From contig NZ_LT629791.1 of the NCBI RefSeq assembly GCF_900105925.1, forward strand, positions 620,001-684,000: a DNA stretch of 64,000 bases. Reading direction: 5' to 3'. Of this stretch, positions 16,008-21,719 are shown in pieces; the first letter of the stretch is position 1, and each line of letters starts with the position of its first letter. The notes below the pieces were generated by a model. The model had not been told where the DNA came from and ran no database searches. It saw nothing but the letters and a program-made list of their open reading frames with translations. A program made the position numbers and the translations under genes. Origin of the DNA: Jiangella alkaliphila. Lineage in GTDB: Bacteria; Actinomycetota; Actinomycetes; Jiangellales; Jiangellaceae.

Positions 16008-16745
16008 TCATGAGGTCATGGCGCTTGTCGGCGGTTGTTCGTGTGGCGTGCTGAGGTCATCCAGTTGCTGCCGGGGTCGGATGGCGGTCAGGCCGAGGAG
16101 GGTCGGGATCGGTTCCTCGCCGTCGTCTTCGGCGGTCTCGTGCAGGATGAGCCCTGCCCCGGTCAGGGCGTTCAGCAAGGCAGGCAGGGGGACGTTGACC
16201 ACGCCGACGCGGGAGCGGATCCCGTCTCCGAGGAGCGGGTGTTCCTCGATGCGTTCGTGGCGGCGGTAGCCGGGATGGACGATGCAGGACCCGTGGGTGT
16301 CGCGTTCGACGAAGGCGCCGCCGAAGCAGGGGTGGCTGGTGATGACGACGAGGCGGCCGCCGGGGCGGAGTACTCGGTGGGCTTCGGCGAACACTGGTGG
16401 CAGGTCGTCGAAGTCGGTGGTCGTCATGATCGTGGCGACAGCGTCCACGGATTGGTCTGCAAGCGGGAGATCTTCGGCGTTGGCGACTGTTGCGGTGATG
16501 CCGGTTCGGCGGGCGAGGTCGACCTGCCGGGCGGAGATGTCAACACCGGTCACGCGCCAACCCAGGCCGGTCAGCGCTGGGACGTGTGCGCCGCCGCCGC
16601 AGCCGAGATCAAGGCAGAGACGGTCCGCTCCTGGGCCTAGTAGTCGTTCCAGAAGGCGGTCTGCTGAGCGGGCGAACGGTTGCCCCATTCCGCTGGTGAC
16701 GTAGGTGTCGTACCAGTCGGCGAATTCGTCATAGCGCTGTCCCAT
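16008..16745 (-). CDS. Class I SAM-dependent methyltransferase
   Basis: A 245-residue UbiE/COQ5-like methyltransferase. The SAM-binding motif LDLGCGGGAHV is at residues 45-55, then VDIS at the acidic post-II position, ANAEDLPLADQSVDAV, and EAHRVLRPGGRLVVITSHP. The substrate is unknown. It lies 77 bases behind the zinc-ribbon recombinase-like gene on the same strand and may be a passenger of the mobile module. Equally, it could be a resident gene that the module landed beside. Its GC content looks slightly lower than the flanks by eye. Confidence 0.85.
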   Translation of the reverse strand: MGQRYDEFADWYDTYVTSGMGQPFARSADRLLERLLGPGADRLCLDLGCGGGAHVPALTGLGWRVTGVDISARQVDLARRTGITATVANAEDLPLADQSVDAVATIMTTTDFDDLPPVFAEAHRVLRPGGRLVVITSHPCFGGAFVERDTHGSCIVHPGYRRHERIEEHPLLGDGIRSRVGVVNVPLPALLNALTGAGLILHETAEDDGEEPIPTLLGLTAIRPRQQLDDLSTPHEQPPTSAMTS

Positions 16746-16822
16746 GGCCTCACTTGAGCAGAGGTCGTGGCCCTGTGCCAATGCAATTCGGGGCTGGTGC
16801 GTGTGTCTGTCGCGTTGCTCGT

Positions 16823-19033
16823 CTATCGGCGGCGGCCGGCTCGGCGTGCTGCGGGGTAGGTGGTCCAGTTGTTGCCGGCGAGTTCGGCCCAGCGGACGGC
16901 GGCGCCGGTGCTGATGCCGATGAGGCTGGCGAACACGGCGGGTGGGGTGGTGGCGGCGAGGTGTCGCAGCGCGGTGTTGCGGCTGGTCCGGGTGGTGATG
17001 CCGAGCTGTTGTAGTCGTCGGATCAGGGAGGCCGGGTGAATGTGCTCGCCTGCCTTCTTGCCGGGGAACAGCCAGCGGTGGTCGGCGAGGACCTGGGCGG
17101 TCCCGAACGGCTTGGCCAGGGGCAGCGCGGTGATGAGGGTGTCGAGCGGGGCGATCAGCAGGAGGGGTTCGGGGCCGAGGCGCAGGTAGGTTCTGCCGGC
17201 CTGGTCGGTGGTGATGTCGTCGGTGGTGAGCGCGGCGATCTTCGCGGCGGGTTGGGCGTAGAGCAGCAGCAGGCAGGCCGCGGCTCGGTCCTCGATGCTG
17301 GCGCTGCCGGGGTCGTGGAGCATCCGCCGGACGGTGGCCCAGCGCTCGTCCTCGGCGTTGAAGGCGCCGGGACTCGTGGGCGGTGGTGGGTCGGGGAGAG
17401 CGACTGCGGTGAGGTGGCCGTCGCGTTGCAGCCACCGGATGAACGAGGCGCGCCGGGTGCCGGTGGCCAGCCAGGTGTCCAGGGTCGGCTGGGTGCACGC
17501 GAGGGTGCTCTGGCCGTGGGCGTTGAGGTGGTCGAGGAACTGCCGGGCGGCGCGGATGTCGCCGCGGCAGCGGTCGGCGACGTTGGCCGACAGGTGTCCG
17601 TGCCGGTCGGGTGTGGCTCTGCCGATGACGTGCCAGCGGGCGTATCGGGCCAGCAGGGCCCGATCTGCCGGGTCGGCGATGTCGGCGAGCAGGCCGGTGG
17701 TGAAGCGCTCGAGCCGGGCCAGGTGCTCGTCGCGGGGCGGCAGCGCGCCGGTGGCGACCAGGACCGAACGCAGGTAGGTGATGCTGAAGCCGCGGCCGCG
17801 TTCGTCGAGTGCGTCGTGGGTGAGCTCGATCCGGCCCTGCGCGATGCCGGCAAGCAGGGCCAGGCTGGCGGTGCGGGTCAGGTTCGACAGGATCGAGCGT
17901 GGCCGGTCACGGTCGGCGATCGCGTCGCGGACCGGCTTGAGCGGTGCCGGGATCACGCCGCTGGCGTCGGTGAGGATGGTGTCGATCTTCGCGGTGGCGT
18001 CGCAGCGGAAGCACATCGGTTGCCCGTGGTTCGTGGTCCGGCGTCCTGGTTCGGTGCGGCCGCAGACCGAGCAGTCGATGACCGGCCACTGGTGGCAGGT
18101 CGGGCAGACGTCGGGGGCGCTGGCGGTGGCCTTCACCGAGACGCGGCGGGTGCGGCCGCAGATGCCGCACTCGCGCCGCGGGTTGGTGTAGCAGCCGGCG
18201 CACAGGTTCACCGAGTGTCCGCCTCGCCCGCCCGCGCGTGCATGGAGAGGGGCGAGCTGTCCGCACTGGTCGCAGACCTGTTCACCGACGCGGCGCCGGG
18301 TGTAGCAGGTGCTGCAGATAGCGCCGCCGTCGCCGTCGCGGGCGTTGACCCGCCGGTCACGGCCGCAGATCACGCAGATCTCGGTGGGGGTGCGGCGGGC
18401 GCGGCAGGCCCGGCAGTAGCGCCGCTGGTCGATCACGCTGCGCTTGAGCGTCCGGGTGCGGCCGCAGCCGTCGCATTCGCCCTGGTGGGTGTTGGCCTGG
18501 CAGCGCGGGCAGACCGGGGCGCCGTCGGCGGTGCGGGCGTTGACGCGGCGGTCGCGCCCGCAGACCGAGCAGGTGGCGGTGTGTGACCGGTTGTAGCAGT
18601 CCTGGCAGATCCGCTGGCCGGCGTGGGTGTGGAACAGCGTCTTCGGGCGATGACACAGCGCGCATGACGGGCTGGTCAGCCCGGTGATCCCGGCGGAGAT
18701 CGCGGCGTAAAGGAAGTCGGCCACGACCTTGGGCATCCTCGAGCCGCCGGCGGTCAGCACCGCCGGGTCGGCCACGATGAGGCCCATGAGGCGCAGCTGC
18801 ATCGACCAGCCCGGCGCGATCTGCGCTGCCACCGCCTCGACCCGTTCGGTCGTCACCGACGCATCCAGCCCGGCGATGAGCGCGGTGAGGGCGGCGAGCC
18901 GGTCCACGTGCTGCCGCTCGCGCCGCTGGGCGAGCAGCCGCTTGCTGGCGCATCGACACATCAGCACGCCCGGCGTGCGGCCGCTGCGTGGCCGGTCGCA
19001 CTCCGGGCACGGTCGCGCCGACGGTCTCGGCAT
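16823..19033 (-). CDS. Zinc-ribbon array fused to a degenerate tyrosine-recombinase-like domain
   Basis: A 736-residue protein. Residues 9-345 hold an N-terminal CPEC...CRC motif and seven CxxC-x14-20-CxxC ribbons; three share a CGRDRRVNAR-type core, so they arose by duplication. After a helical middle, residues about 480-570 look like a core-binding domain and 590-725 like a tyrosine recombinase catalytic domain. Of the catalytic set only the second Arg survives, in TALRHLA near 688. The first Arg position reads AQPAAKIAAL, the His of the GH motif is missing, and the Tyr position reads AVRWAEL (near 713). I infer a DNA-binding partner rather than an active recombinase. It follows the recombinase and HTH genes on one transcript, 22 bases behind the latter. 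Confidence 0.75.
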   Translation of the reverse strand: MPRPSARPCPECDRPRSGRTPGVLMCRCASKRLLAQRRERQHVDRLAALTALIAGLDASVTTERVEAVAAQIAPGWSMQLRLMGLIVADPAVLTAGGSRMPKVVADFLYAAISAGITGLTSPSCALCHRPKTLFHTHAGQRICQDCYNRSHTATCSVCGRDRRVNARTADGAPVCPRCQANTHQGECDGCGRTRTLKRSVIDQRRYCRACRARRTPTEICVICGRDRRVNARDGDGGAICSTCYTRRRVGEQVCDQCGQLAPLHARAGGRGGHSVNLCAGCYTNPRRECGICGRTRRVSVKATASAPDVCPTCHQWPVIDCSVCGRTEPGRRTTNHGQPMCFRCDATAKIDTILTDASGVIPAPLKPVRDAIADRDRPRSILSNLTRTASLALLAGIAQGRIELTHDALDERGRGFSITYLRSVLVATGALPPRDEHLARLERFTTGLLADIADPADRALLARYARWHVIGRATPDRHGHLSANVADRCRGDIRAARQFLDHLNAHGQSTLACTQPTLDTWLATGTRRASFIRWLQRDGHLTAVALPDPPPPTSPGAFNAEDERWATVRRMLHDPGSASIEDRAAACLLLLYAQPAAKIAALTTDDITTDQAGRTYLRLGPEPLLLIAPLDTLITALPLAKPFGTAQVLADHRWLFPGKKAGEHIHPASLIRRLQQLGITTRTSRNTALRHLAATTPPAVFASLIGISTGAAVRWAELAGNNWTTYPAARRAGRRR

Positions 19034-19055
19034 CGCTGGGACCCCGTGCCGGCGG

Positions 19056-19400
19056 TCAGGACTCGTCGGTCGCGGTGACGGTGGCCCGCCTGGGCCGATT
19101 CTTGCTGGCTGCCCTCGGCGCGGGAGCCGCCTCTGCCGCAGTCTTGCGGCGACGGGTCGACGTGGCCACGACGTAGGGCTCGATCAGGTCGTTCGGCGTG
19201 CAGGCGAAGATGTCACACAACGCCGACAGCAGCCGCATGTTCAGCCGTTCCGGTTCGCCGGTGACGATCCGATAGACCTGGGTCGAGGTCATCACCACCC
19301 CCCGATCGGCCAGCAGCGGCACCAGATCAGTGGTGTTGTGCATGCCGTGCTCGGACATCAGCGTGCGCAGATGCCAGTGGTAGGCGACCGTCGTCGTCAT
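19056..19400 (-). CDS. Small XRE-type helix-turn-helix protein of the recombinase module
   Basis: A 114-residue protein. Residues 5-75 form a Cro/C1-type HTH (LVPLLADRGVVMTSTQVYRIVTGEPERLNMRLLSALCDIFACTPNDLIEP), followed by a Lys/Arg/Ala-rich tail likely to contact DNA nonspecifically. It could repress the module or help assemble the recombination complex. Its size and place between two recombinase-like genes recall the small accessory protein of multi-gene transposons such as Tn554, which is a comparison and not proof. The ATG overlaps the recombinase stop by ATGA. Confidence 0.8.
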   Translation of the reverse strand: MTTTVAYHWHLRTLMSEHGMHNTTDLVPLLADRGVVMTSTQVYRIVTGEPERLNMRLLSALCDIFACTPNDLIEPYVVATSTRRRKTAAEAAPAPRAASKNRPRRATVTATDES

Positions 19401-20554
19401 CCTTGCTGTCCTTCCGATCCGTCCGCCGACGCCGACGCGGGTGCCGTGAATGCTTGGTCCAGCGCGCGGCGCAGCACGCTGTTGCGGTAGTCGCCGGACA
19501 CGCCGGTGTAGAGGGCGGTGGTCGAGCCCCACCGGTGCCCGACCTGCTGCTGCACGAACAACGGGTCGAACCCGTCCTCGATCAGATGCGTCACATAGGA
19601 GTGCCGCAGGCAGTGCGGATGCAGCACCGGGTCCAGGCCGAGCGCGTCACGATACTCGGCGAACCGGGAACCGATGTAGCTCCCGCTGACCCGGCTCTGG
19701 CGTTCGGTGGGCCACAACATCGCATCGTCGGCGACCTTGAACCGGGGCAGCACGTCGTCGACGTACTCCGCCAGCACCGGCCCGGTCCAGTCGAACACGG
19801 TCACCACCGCCCTGCGTCGTGGCTGTGACCCGCGCGTGGCCTTGCCCCAGCGCACGTTACAGACCCCGAAGGCGCCGAACTCCGGCACGGCAGCGTTGCG
19901 GGTGAAGTCATGCAGATCGAGCATCGCCACCTCGCGCCGCCGCAGACCGTAGGCATAGATGACCTTGAACAGGGTCGCGTCGCGGAACAACGCCGTCCAG
20001 CCCTTCCGCTTGGACGTCCGGGCGAAGTCCACCCGGTCGTCGGCATGGTCGAACAACGCCTGCACCTCCATCCGGGTCAACGGCCGCACGCTCGGGCGGG
20101 CCTCGTGGTCGCTGACATGGATCGCGGTGTTCCACTCGTGGCAGACCTGGACCGGGTGCGTCCCGAACGCCTCCAGGCACGCCTCGGCCCAGCCGTAGCG
20201 GGAATCGGTCAGATACGAGCAGAACAACGCCACCGCGTTCTGGTAGCCGCGGATCGACGACGGCGCCTTCGGCCGCGGCCCGGACAGCAGCTGCGCGGTC
20301 CACTCCTCCACATCCGTCGCGGTCCACTCCCACGGCAGCGTCGCGCAGAACTCGGCGAACCGTCGCACCGCGCCTTCGCGGGCGCGGATCGTCACCGGCG
20401 ACAGCAGCCGGCTCGACTGCTGCCCCGCCCACCCGGCGAGCATGTCGTCGAACATCTGCTCCGCCGGCCGCAGCACCGCCACGTTCGCCGGCCGCAACGA
20501 GACCACCGACCCCGGCACCGACTCATCTCTCGAACCCACCCGGCGACCGTACAT
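19397..20554 (-). CDS. Tyrosine-type site-specific recombinase (integrase)
   Basis: A 385-residue recombinase with a SAM-like core-binding domain (about 35-145) and a complete catalytic domain: Arg205 in YGLRRREVA, His314/Arg317 in HPHCLRHSYVTHL, His340 in VGHRWGS, and nucleophile Tyr349 in TTALYTGVS. It should cut and rejoin DNA through a covalent phosphotyrosine. The chosen ATG at 20554 lies inside a direct repeat and lacks a ribosome site, so translation may be leaderless or start at an internal GTG (codon 6). It leads the three-gene module. The closest relatives should be integrases of actinobacterial elements rather than XerC/D. Confidence 0.9.
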   Translation of the reverse strand: MYGRRVGSRDESVPGSVVSLRPANVAVLRPAEQMFDDMLAGWAGQQSSRLLSPVTIRAREGAVRRFAEFCATLPWEWTATDVEEWTAQLLSGPRPKAPSSIRGYQNAVALFCSYLTDSRYGWAEACLEAFGTHPVQVCHEWNTAIHVSDHEARPSVRPLTRMEVQALFDHADDRVDFARTSKRKGWTALFRDATLFKVIYAYGLRRREVAMLDLHDFTRNAAVPEFGAFGVCNVRWGKATRGSQPRRRAVVTVFDWTGPVLAEYVDDVLPRFKVADDAMLWPTERQSRVSGSYIGSRFAEYRDALGLDPVLHPHCLRHSYVTHLIEDGFDPLFVQQQVGHRWGSTTALYTGVSGDYRNSVLRRALDQAFTAPASASADGSEGQQG

Positions 20555-20586
20555 TAGATGTAAGAATCATGCTCTAGATGTAAGCA
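20550..20586. repeat. Direct repeat block 1 beside the recombinase gene
   Basis: The block contains two TAGATGTAAG units exactly 20 bases apart (20555-20564 and 20575-20584). The first is the right side of a small palindrome TACAT-tag-ATGTA. The block matches block 2 at 26 of 37 positions. It overlaps the recombinase start codon, so it may be a recombinase arm/core site or an operator. Confidence 0.7.
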
Positions 20587-20668
20587 GATTGACGAACGGG
20601 CTGATCAGAGCTGCGCATCTCAGCCATGAGGGGTCTCGACAGGGCGGCAGGTCACCACGATCCACGCC

Positions 20669-20705
20669 TACATCAGACGTAAGAATCGTACATCCGATGC
20701 AATAA
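20669..20705. repeat. Direct repeat block 2 beside the recombinase gene
   Basis: A second copy of the 37-base block, 119 bases from block 1. Its units are CAGACGTAAG and the more diverged CCGATGCAAT, again 20 bases apart. It ends a few bases from the stop codon of the flanking lipoprotein gene, which makes it the best candidate for the right end of the module. Between the blocks I see no gene. Confidence 0.65.
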
Positions 20706-20708
20706 TTG

Positions 20709-21719
20709 CTAATTGCGTTCGAACCCGAGGTGGACGTGGTCGCGGTGCAGGTCGTCGGCGAAGTGCTTGCCGCCGGGGCCGTCCGGGTCGACCGGGCCGC
20801 CGATCTCGTCGCTGCCGGTCGCGCGGACCGCGGCGAGGAAGTCGAGCAGGAACGGCTCGTCCTTGTCCATCGACACCACCGGGCGGCCGTCGACCGCCCA
20901 GATGTCGACGGCGCGGCCGCGGGTGTGGTTGCTGGTGCGGTCGCTGCCGAAGACGGTCTCGGGGTGGCCGCTGCTGAACACCGACACCGCCAGCTCGTAG
21001 GTCGCGGACAGCTCCAGCAGCGCGGCGAGGACGCGCGCGTCGACGATGCCGGCGGCGAGGTCGGCGACGGCGGCCTCCGGCAGCTGGACCCGCCCGCTCG
21101 CGGCGAGGTCGGCGGCCGGCCCGGTCAGCCTGGCGGCCGCGTCGGGCACCGGCGCGACGGGGTGCAGCTCGGTGACCGTCCACGCGCTGCCCGCGCGCTG
21201 CAGCCGGACGTCCGCCGTCACCACCCGCTCCCGCAGCGCCGCGCCGTCGGCCCAGGTCTGCCGCACGACGGCCATGACACTCGCCGTGCTGCGCTCCAGC
21301 CCGCCGTACTGCGGGTACACGATTTGCGCGACGGCGGGCCCGGCGGGCGGCAGCAGCGGGCCGGCGGTGCGCTCGAGGACCGGCTGCGCCCCGGCGGCGG
21401 TCAGCCGGTCGGCCGCGGGGGTGACGGCGACACCGTCAGGCACCGTCCCGAGCGCCTCCAGCACCCGGACCGCGGCCAGCTTGACCTCCGGCGAGATCTC
21501 GTTGCCGCCCGGCTGCCAGGGCGACGACGCCGGCAGGTCCGCCACCGGTGACGGGGGCTCCGGTGGTGGACCCGCCGGCTGCTTGGGGTTCGGCCGGGCA
21601 GGGGGCGTGCGGACGGCGCGAGCGTCCGGTACGCCCGCGCCGCCGGCTCCGCAGGCCGCCGCGAAGGCGGCCACGGCCGCGAGGAGCAAGCCGCGGCGGC
21701 CGACGCCGCGACCGCTCAT
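20709..21719 (-). CDS. Lipoprotein with C-terminal M15-type (D-Ala-D-Ala peptidase-like) domain
   Basis: A 336-residue exported protein. The signal has GRRGLLLAAVAAFAAAC, a twin-arginine-like start with a lipobox Cys at 23, then a Pro-rich linker. The middle is an uncharacterised alpha/beta region. The C-terminal part has the metal-peptidase pattern SNHTRGRAVDIW followed by HRDHVHLGF (His325-His330), as in M15/hedgehog-type zinc peptidases. It may act on peptidoglycan, but the catalytic set is only partly testable by eye. The ATG overlaps the upstream GNAT stop by ATGA. Its 3' end abuts the recombinase module. Confidence 0.75.
   Translation of the reverse strand: MSGRGVGRRGLLLAAVAAFAAACGAGGAGVPDARAVRTPPARPNPKQPAGPPPEPPSPVADLPASSPWQPGGNEISPEVKLAAVRVLEALGTVPDGVAVTPAADRLTAAGAQPVLERTAGPLLPPAGPAVAQIVYPQYGGLERSTASVMAVVRQTWADGAALRERVVTADVRLQRAGSAWTVTELHPVAPVPDAAARLTGPAADLAASGRVQLPEAAVADLAAGIVDARVLAALLELSATYELAVSVFSSGHPETVFGSDRTSNHTRGRAVDIWAVDGRPVVSMDKDEPFLLDFLAAVRATGSDEIGGPVDPDGPGGKHFADDLHRDHVHLGFERN

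Follow-up and report, generated by a model that had tools for sequence, protein, structure and literature searches.

A predicted Tsy-type element with a catalytically dead TnsF-like protein in Jiangella alkaliphila and its relatives

We analyzed a 64,000-nucleotide stretch of the Jiangella alkaliphila genome (contig NZ_LT629791.1, positions 620,001 to 684,000; hereafter "the window", whose own numbering is used for all coordinates) and identified in it an element of about 3.9 kb, at about 16793-20714, whose three genes very probably form the complete gene complement of a small, site-specific, Tsy-type transposon. The genes encode an active tyrosine recombinase (YR), a small helix-turn-helix (HTH) protein and a large protein that, judged by its sequence, is a homologue of TnsF and a dead YR relative carrying a zinc-ribbon array. 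We tentatively propose, at somewhat less than even confidence, that the element belongs to a large, mainly actinobacterial family in which this dead YR-fold protein serves as an evolvable DNA reader, steering the single active YR to a short motif in a coding sequence, and that it has been retargeted many times, including to codons for catalytic residues of other recombinases and to CRISPR arrays.

The three-gene module

The YR gene (the YRec of the element; 19397-20554, minus strand) encodes 385 residues with a complete R-K-H-R-H-Y set and a Pfam Phage_integrase match at 6.3e-16. It overlaps by 4 bp the gene for the small Cro/C1-type HTH protein (19056-19400, minus strand; 114 residues; HTH_26 at 1.4e-12), and the gene for the TnsF-like large protein (P0001; 16823-19033, minus strand; 736 residues) starts 22 bp after the HTH gene. 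The large protein is made up of a zinc-ribbon array, a core-binding-like domain and a dead YR catalytic domain. In Pfam it had zinc-ribbon matches only, weak and under the cut-off, and no NCBIfam model matched either it or TnsF. The delimited element carries these three genes only, with no tnsA, tnsB, tnsC or tniQ and no nuclease gene.

Our census of the trio covered 69 loci (the window and 68 others), with 39 large proteins counted as full-length by a coverage cut-off. The YR and HTH genes lie upstream in the same order in 38 of these 39, the sole full-length large protein without an adjoining YR being that of L093 (G304); homologues thus do not occur mostly without their two partners. Broken copies, frameshifts and contig ends account for the remaining 30 loci, all partial matches; nine of them retain the HTH gene, the YR gene or both. 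Overlaps of 4 bp between genes are frequent across the trios of relatives. Such constancy of order exceeds chance, and the trio is a single conserved operon. The addition of 22 further loci brought the total to 59 trios; several are near-identical copies, so that the rows of the trio alignments are not all independent. R205 and K238 of the window YR are kept in all 58 aligned YRs (L059, whose YR has an internal stop, was omitted), and H314, R317, H340 and Y349 in 57, the remaining row being a gap.

An original prediction, made from the letters of the window, had described at 16823-20554 three adjacent or overlapping genes locked in one operon: an intact tyrosine recombinase (Arg205, His314, Arg317, His340, Tyr349), an HTH protein and a partner with a long zinc-ribbon array and a dead C-terminal YR that had kept only the second Arg. 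The gene structure and conservation above bear out this description, as do the residues of the large protein.

The large protein

The zinc-ribbon array occupies residues 124-344 (18002-18664, minus strand), with 15 CxxC matches in the window protein. Six CxxC pairs are common to the family in the alignment (residues 254-344; 18002-18274, minus strand), and their 12 cysteines are kept in 56-58 of the 59 aligned large proteins. The CxxC count splits the 59 into 34 long-array proteins (at least 10 CxxC; 554-840 residues) and 25 short-array proteins (mostly six CxxC; about 465-516 residues), two of the latter (L175 and L176) being damaged members of a long-array group.

A core-binding (SAM-like) domain at residues ~456-553 (17375-17668, minus strand), placed by structural alignment to XerA (5hxy_C), is followed by a degenerate YR catalytic domain at residues ~560-726 (16856-17356, minus strand). 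The second-Arg position, R685 in the window protein, holds R in 58 of the 59 proteins and K in one. At the first-Arg position, P595 in the window, Arg is present in two and lost in 57, and the nucleophile position, W715 in the window, holds W in 41, H in 14, L in two, A in one and V in one, and Tyr in none. Four distant trios (Variovorax, Peribacillus, R. opacus and pNOCA01) have, by eye, a Tyr at the apparently equivalent place.

A YR fold for the C-terminal half is weakly supported by modelling. The model of residues 350-736, built from five sequences (mean pLDDT 66.6, pTM 0.39), has YR-like helix order and three strands; the full-length model reached pLDDT 68.7 and pTM 0.31. Rather than pointing to an unrelated fold, a Foldseek search with the former model gave tyrosine recombinases (Cre or XerH) in rows 1-27 of 50, at E values of at least 0.024. 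VIA-align placed model residues 107-204 on XerA 5hxy_C (Z 6.8, rmsd 3.7, 84 aligned residues), a Z below 8 not being proof, and a PDB sequence search with alignment A1 returned XerD at E 0.029, amid zinc and cytochrome matches.

The family profile matched TnsF at 4.5e-18; the TnsF used (L197, Tn6022-type) was identified by its tnsA-tnsB-tniB-tniQ neighbours. The Variovorax trio links the family to TnsF: P0001 matched the Variovorax large protein at 1.6e-24 over residues 170-717, and the Variovorax protein matched TnsF at 5.5e-27. A 41-sequence tree, made from a difficult alignment and with some low inner supports, separated the 32 family members, with support 0.993, from the four distant trios and TnsF.

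Element ends and empty sites

The YR-side end (20550-20714) has the terminus AATTAGCAATTATTGCAT (reverse strand) at 20697-20714. The pattern AA-N9-(A/G)TT(A/G)CAT is present at this end in 22 of the 59 trios, and since the window terminus fits it, we put the YR-side terminus at 20714. Palindromic TACATNNGAYGYAA boxes at 20550-20563, 20669-20682 and 20689-20702 are probably binding sites for the HTH protein or the YR. Across 53 upstream regions the motif RCATYNGATG has 62 sites, spread over 31 of the regions and located at promoter and end; Markov-resampled regions had a mean of 1.0.

The distal terminus is placed less surely, at approximately 16780-16800, with GCACCAGC at 16793-16800 (reverse strand) as the candidate. 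The distal end reads CCRGT in 13 of 15 readable junctions of relatives (four in the HxxR group, two in the HATPase group, three in the nrdH group and four in the cargo group, all described below), the HxxR-group junctions having been set at the point where the host frame resumes; the other two, both Tyr-group copies, end CCATT.

Homology to empty sites resumes at 20715/20716, and homology to the methyltransferase locus of a congeneric genome (G014) stops at 16779. The element lies at the 3' end of a lipoprotein gene with an HxDHxHL ending (20709-21719, minus strand), whose reading frame now ends FERN-stop, the last bases being element-derived. This gene, which we take to be M15-like, was found in all 12 genomes of the genus; its product had no Pfam or NCBIfam match at E 0.01. 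The original prediction had called for a search for the trio elsewhere and for a comparison of empty and occupied sites; the former yielded the 59 trios, and the latter a trio-free site in five of 11 congeneric relatives. In four of these (L015, L016, L018, L022) the lipoprotein gene adjoins a GntR/ABC block, and in the fifth (L017, in G014) a methyltransferase gene; the far flank was unmatched in the remaining six relatives. Beside the distal end in the window lies a class I S-adenosylmethionine methyltransferase-like gene (16008-16745, minus strand; assigned by eye), which is host DNA. It was considered as cargo and rejected, because it adjoins the target gene without a trio in G014.

Distribution and mobility

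Relatives of the large protein turned up in 68 of the 393 genomes of a class-wide search. They also occur in 248 of 72,556 plasmid records and in no phage record among 50,697; viral contigs yielded none with P0001 or alignment A4, three with alignment A2 and one with alignment A3.

Four genomes (G344, G524, G145 and G530) hold near-identical copies at different sites. In G344, two different YR genes each carry a copy, 99.95% identical over 4083 bp. Three nrdH genes of G524 are occupied (L179-L180 98.6%, L179-L181 99.4%, and L180-L181 93.3% over 6.5 kb, flanks included), as are two HATPase genes of G145 (99.5% over 3.8 kb), and the four copies in G530, of which L174 and L177 have the same host flanks, are 99.6-99.8% identical. 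By these identities, the relatives transposed recently. A cargo-bearing version of about 15.8 kb (L070, L071 and L072 with L127-L129) occurs in five genomes and is >99.8% identical in three; its cargo, assigned by eye, comprises an MmpL-like transporter, a P450, a luciferase-like oxidoreductase and TetR regulators. A 6-bp footprint of the kind left by the elements known as SEs was sought, and the nrdH, HATPase and Tyr pairs show none. The G336/G068 pair alone shares six bases beyond the point where G352 and G257 diverge, and its host flanks are alike further on, so we do not claim such a footprint.

It is highly improbable that the trio is a resident host recombination locus that does not move. 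The single copy in the J. alkaliphila genome would suit such a locus, but relatives have trio-free sites, and the family is multi-copy within genomes, occurs on plasmids and in some cases carries cargo. The resident locus was rejected on the trio-free sites and the near-identical copies at multiple sites in relatives.

Target sites

Targets were assigned and Pfam-scanned for 24 of the 34 long-array trios, together with L169, L170, L175, L176 and L178, giving 29 flank proteins that had been chosen because a motif was already seen in them. Four more trios were assigned by eye: L185, L186 and L188, beside one gene type that is read in the other direction and that we take to be DUF2637-like, and L192, whose motif is presumably YraN-like. 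Four long-array trios (L077, L184, L189 and L191) lie outside the assignment; L177 repeats the L174 flank, and L187 has nothing but DNA in common with L186.

In the window group (the window, L002, L003, L055 and L057) the insertion follows an HxDHxH motif in five of five cases. Pfam identified the targets of L002, L055 and L057 as M23 peptidases, with the motif beyond the M23 domain, and gave no match for the target proteins of the window and L003. The HxxR group (L058-L061 and L169) is inserted in another YR gene, in five of five by motif and in four of five above the Pfam cut-off. In the Tyr group (L064, L066, L065, L100, L126, L174, L175, L176 and L178), six of nine host proteins match Phage_integrase above the cut-off; L100 is assigned by motif only, L065 lies in an ISL3 transposase gene, and L175 is without a match. 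Of the 172 positions in the Phage_integrase profile, the host match extends to 140-144 in HxxR rows L058, L060 and L061, and to 168-169 in Tyr rows L064, L066, L126, L174 and L178; in L176, also of the Tyr group, it ends at 139 although the Tyr motif comes later. The nrdH-group targets (L179, L180, L181 and L183) are glutaredoxins in four of four, that of L179 also being NrdH by NCBIfam. The HATPase and NlpC/P60 targets were each identified in two of two, and an HNH-like motif (L063, L182) was seen by eye in two of two without a Pfam match.

Across these seven groups the target gene is oriented toward the YR-side end, and its coding motif lies within about 40 bp of that end (by eye, from junction sequences; for some groups the end is placed inexactly). 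Host proteins of the Tyr and window groups retain the motif and gain a short new tail, and in the HxxR group the host YR is severed ahead of its Tyr. Insertion in recombinase genes, with one subfamily cutting before the catalytic tyrosine, suggests that the elements can disable other recombinases. For the short-array elements, none of 10 scanned upstream open reading frames (of 20 listed, all mechanical longest frames) was an integrase.

Two elements in different genomes, L186 and L187, are 98.98% identical; the genes beside them differ but have about 20 bp in common adjoining the YR-side end, which suggests recognition of the target at the DNA level.

Relatives were also seen inside CRISPR arrays. 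Two of them, L088 (G243:C77) and L089 (G338:C318), come from two genera, have YRs 81% identical and are flanked by different repeats. The array around L088 has 56 and 24 repeats on the two sides, with a scaffold gap of Ns just before the 24, and that around L089 has 1 and 21; both large genes look damaged. A C-terminal remnant, at about L117:4590-4830 (G282:C9), lies inside a third CRISPR array. A search for more cases with the L089 recombinase covered 34 loci, including the two known copies as L202 and L203 (L202, on a stretch with one repeat, was unflagged), and none of the 32 other loci was flagged, six of them having <500 bp upstream.

Choice of target

In the mechanism that we propose, the TnsF-like protein would bind target DNA next to the YR-side end and bring the YR complex there. 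The active YR would perform strand cutting and joining, probably via a circular intermediate. The HTH protein would recognize the palindromic boxes at both the promoter and the YR-side end, and so couple gene expression to recognition of the end. As its partner lacks catalysis, a single YR would act together with a YR-fold protein that has a targeting or structural part, in contrast to Tsy with its two catalytic proteins. None of the 59 aligned relatives has Tyr at the nucleophile position, yet near-identical copies lie at multiple sites, so that a single active YR appears to be enough. The dead TnsF-like protein probably selects the target while the YR cuts, and the DNA may be read by the array, the core-binding region or both. 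The original prediction had the large protein either choosing the target or bridging ends. Homology to TnsF favors target choice as the likely job; the other role persists in the alternative that follows.

The large protein could instead be an architectural or end-binding subunit that assembles the synapse, with target choice made by the active YR through core homology. We consider this possible but rather doubtful. Such subunits are described in parts of the literature on SEs and GInts, whose Tfp and GinC are YR-fold proteins without full catalysis that are needed for recombination (PMC10214605, PMC5385486). In the Tyr-site subfamily, moreover, every one of nine sites (L178 from translation) has TAY at the start of the six bases that precede the junction, as a core match would give. 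The homology of the large protein points the other way, since TnsF is described as a target-DNA binder needed for insertion in both Tn6022 and Tsy (PMC10293859), and active YRs about 50% identical serve very different targets.

Several observations weigh against the proposed account of the element. Divergence of the array was expected to track target change more than divergence of the C-terminal half, and this was not found: identity is 0.59 for the array and 0.57 for the C-terminal half in same-target pairs (n=26), and 0.317 and 0.318 in different-target pairs (n=184). The match to TnsF is partly cysteine-rich composition (bias 38.5 bits). The fold evidence is weak, with a five-sequence model of pLDDT 66.6 and pTM 0.39 and Foldseek YR rows with a best E of 0.024 and TM-scores of 0.13-0.19, and comparing profiles of the large protein and the active YR gave no significant match. 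Y726 is conserved in 55 of 59 large proteins with no role assigned, and a second recombinase may help in trans. For the window element itself, the distal end reads CCAGC near 16793, one base off the CCRGT consensus, and the element is present once in its genome, so that its own activity is conjectural. Finally, the family is known here from sequence alone.

Between the catalytic TnsF of Tsy and the dead TnsF of Tn6022, the family offers an in-between state, YR transposons still moving despite a catalytically dead TnsF-like protein. Selectors about 30-80% identical, together with several distinct targets, make testable which part reads the DNA. The HxxR and Tyr subfamilies both go into genes for other tyrosine recombinases, and the former interrupts them ahead of the catalytic tyrosine. 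Protein-guided insertion by a single recombinase, with many natural target specificities, could serve genome insertion.

Relation to known systems

A search of the open-licence literature found no description of the dead-TnsF family or its targets; a report on R. jostii (PMC12169178), in the part of its text available, is unrelated to the element. Assignments to Tn554, SE, GInt and RIT elements were not adopted. SEs and GInts, in their described parts, have two active YRs and a fourth small protein and no zinc-ribbon array, whereas the window element has one active YR. RIT elements consist of three tandem tyrosine recombinases, whereas the second gene here encodes an HTH protein and the third lacks the catalytic set.

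Alternatively, the trio could belong to the Tn554 group (TnpA-TnpB-TnpC), its large protein being a decayed TnpB, which we think improbable. A 2012 survey, as far as its accessible text goes, classed similar actinobacterial pairs of an ordinary YR and a 611-828 residue partner as "Tn554-related" (Van Houdt et al., PMC3414803). The plan of three genes, with one ordinary and one long partner, is shared, and the survey's pNOCA01 is likewise a YR-HTH-large trio; the survey differs in that it reports a potential catalytic motif for the long protein and lists the third pNOCA01 gene as "none" (PMC3414803). In the Nocardioides record (L194) that third gene is an annotated HTH gene between two recombinase-type genes; the pNOCA01 YR is 28% identical to the window YR, and its large protein was unmatched by the family profile in one search and weakly matched in another. 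A TnpA-like protein is matched by the YR profile at 2.6e-12, a match that many YRs would also give. Against a Tn554 origin, the second gene encodes an HTH_26 protein, and the P0001 profile, which does match TnsF and the Variovorax trio, had no match to the TnpB-like protein beside the Peribacillus trio (a 523-residue fragment; authentic Tn554 TnpB was not in the comparison). That distant trio (L196, on a plasmid) lies directly after a short JAB-domain gene, with the Tn554-like recombinase pair nearby. RadC is the target of Tn554.

The nearest described system is Tsy, of which the element is a relative by gene order and homology. The original prediction of an undescribed system did not hold: a YR, an HTH protein and a TnsF with zinc fingers and YR fold constitute Tsy, as published in 2023 (Faure et al., PMC10293859), a dead TnsF is known from Tn6022 and dead YR-fold partners occur in SEs and GInts. 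As in Tsy, an active YR gene lies upstream, a small HTH gene lies beside YRec and upstream of tnsF, and the TnsF-like protein has N-terminal zinc fingers and a YR-type core-binding and catalytic region, a likeness of sequence with weak fold support. Like Tsy, the element is inserted at a conserved coding motif that adjoins its YR-side end, the Tsy attachment site being described as <40 bp upstream of the insertion, and the end2 of ZooTsy, ending CCCAGTC, resembles the CCRGT consensus (PMC10293859).

The accessible account of Tn6022-type Tn7-like elements describes a dead zinc-finger TnsF homologue as target selector, proposed by Faure et al. to derive from the catalytic TnsF of a Tsy transposon (PMC10293859). 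Transposition there uses TnsABC and TniQ and no YR, whereas the window element has no tnsA, tnsB, tnsC or tniQ. ZooTsy, as described, targets the Walker B motif of comM, carries a GIY-YIG nuclease and requires the catalysis of its TnsF (PMC10293859). By sequence, what is new relative to Tsy is that the TnsF-like protein is dead while the YR is active, and that the targets are other than comM: the family is flanked instead by genes for peptidase, YR, ISL3 transposase, glutaredoxin, HATPase and NlpC/P60 proteins, and the window element is without a nuclease gene.

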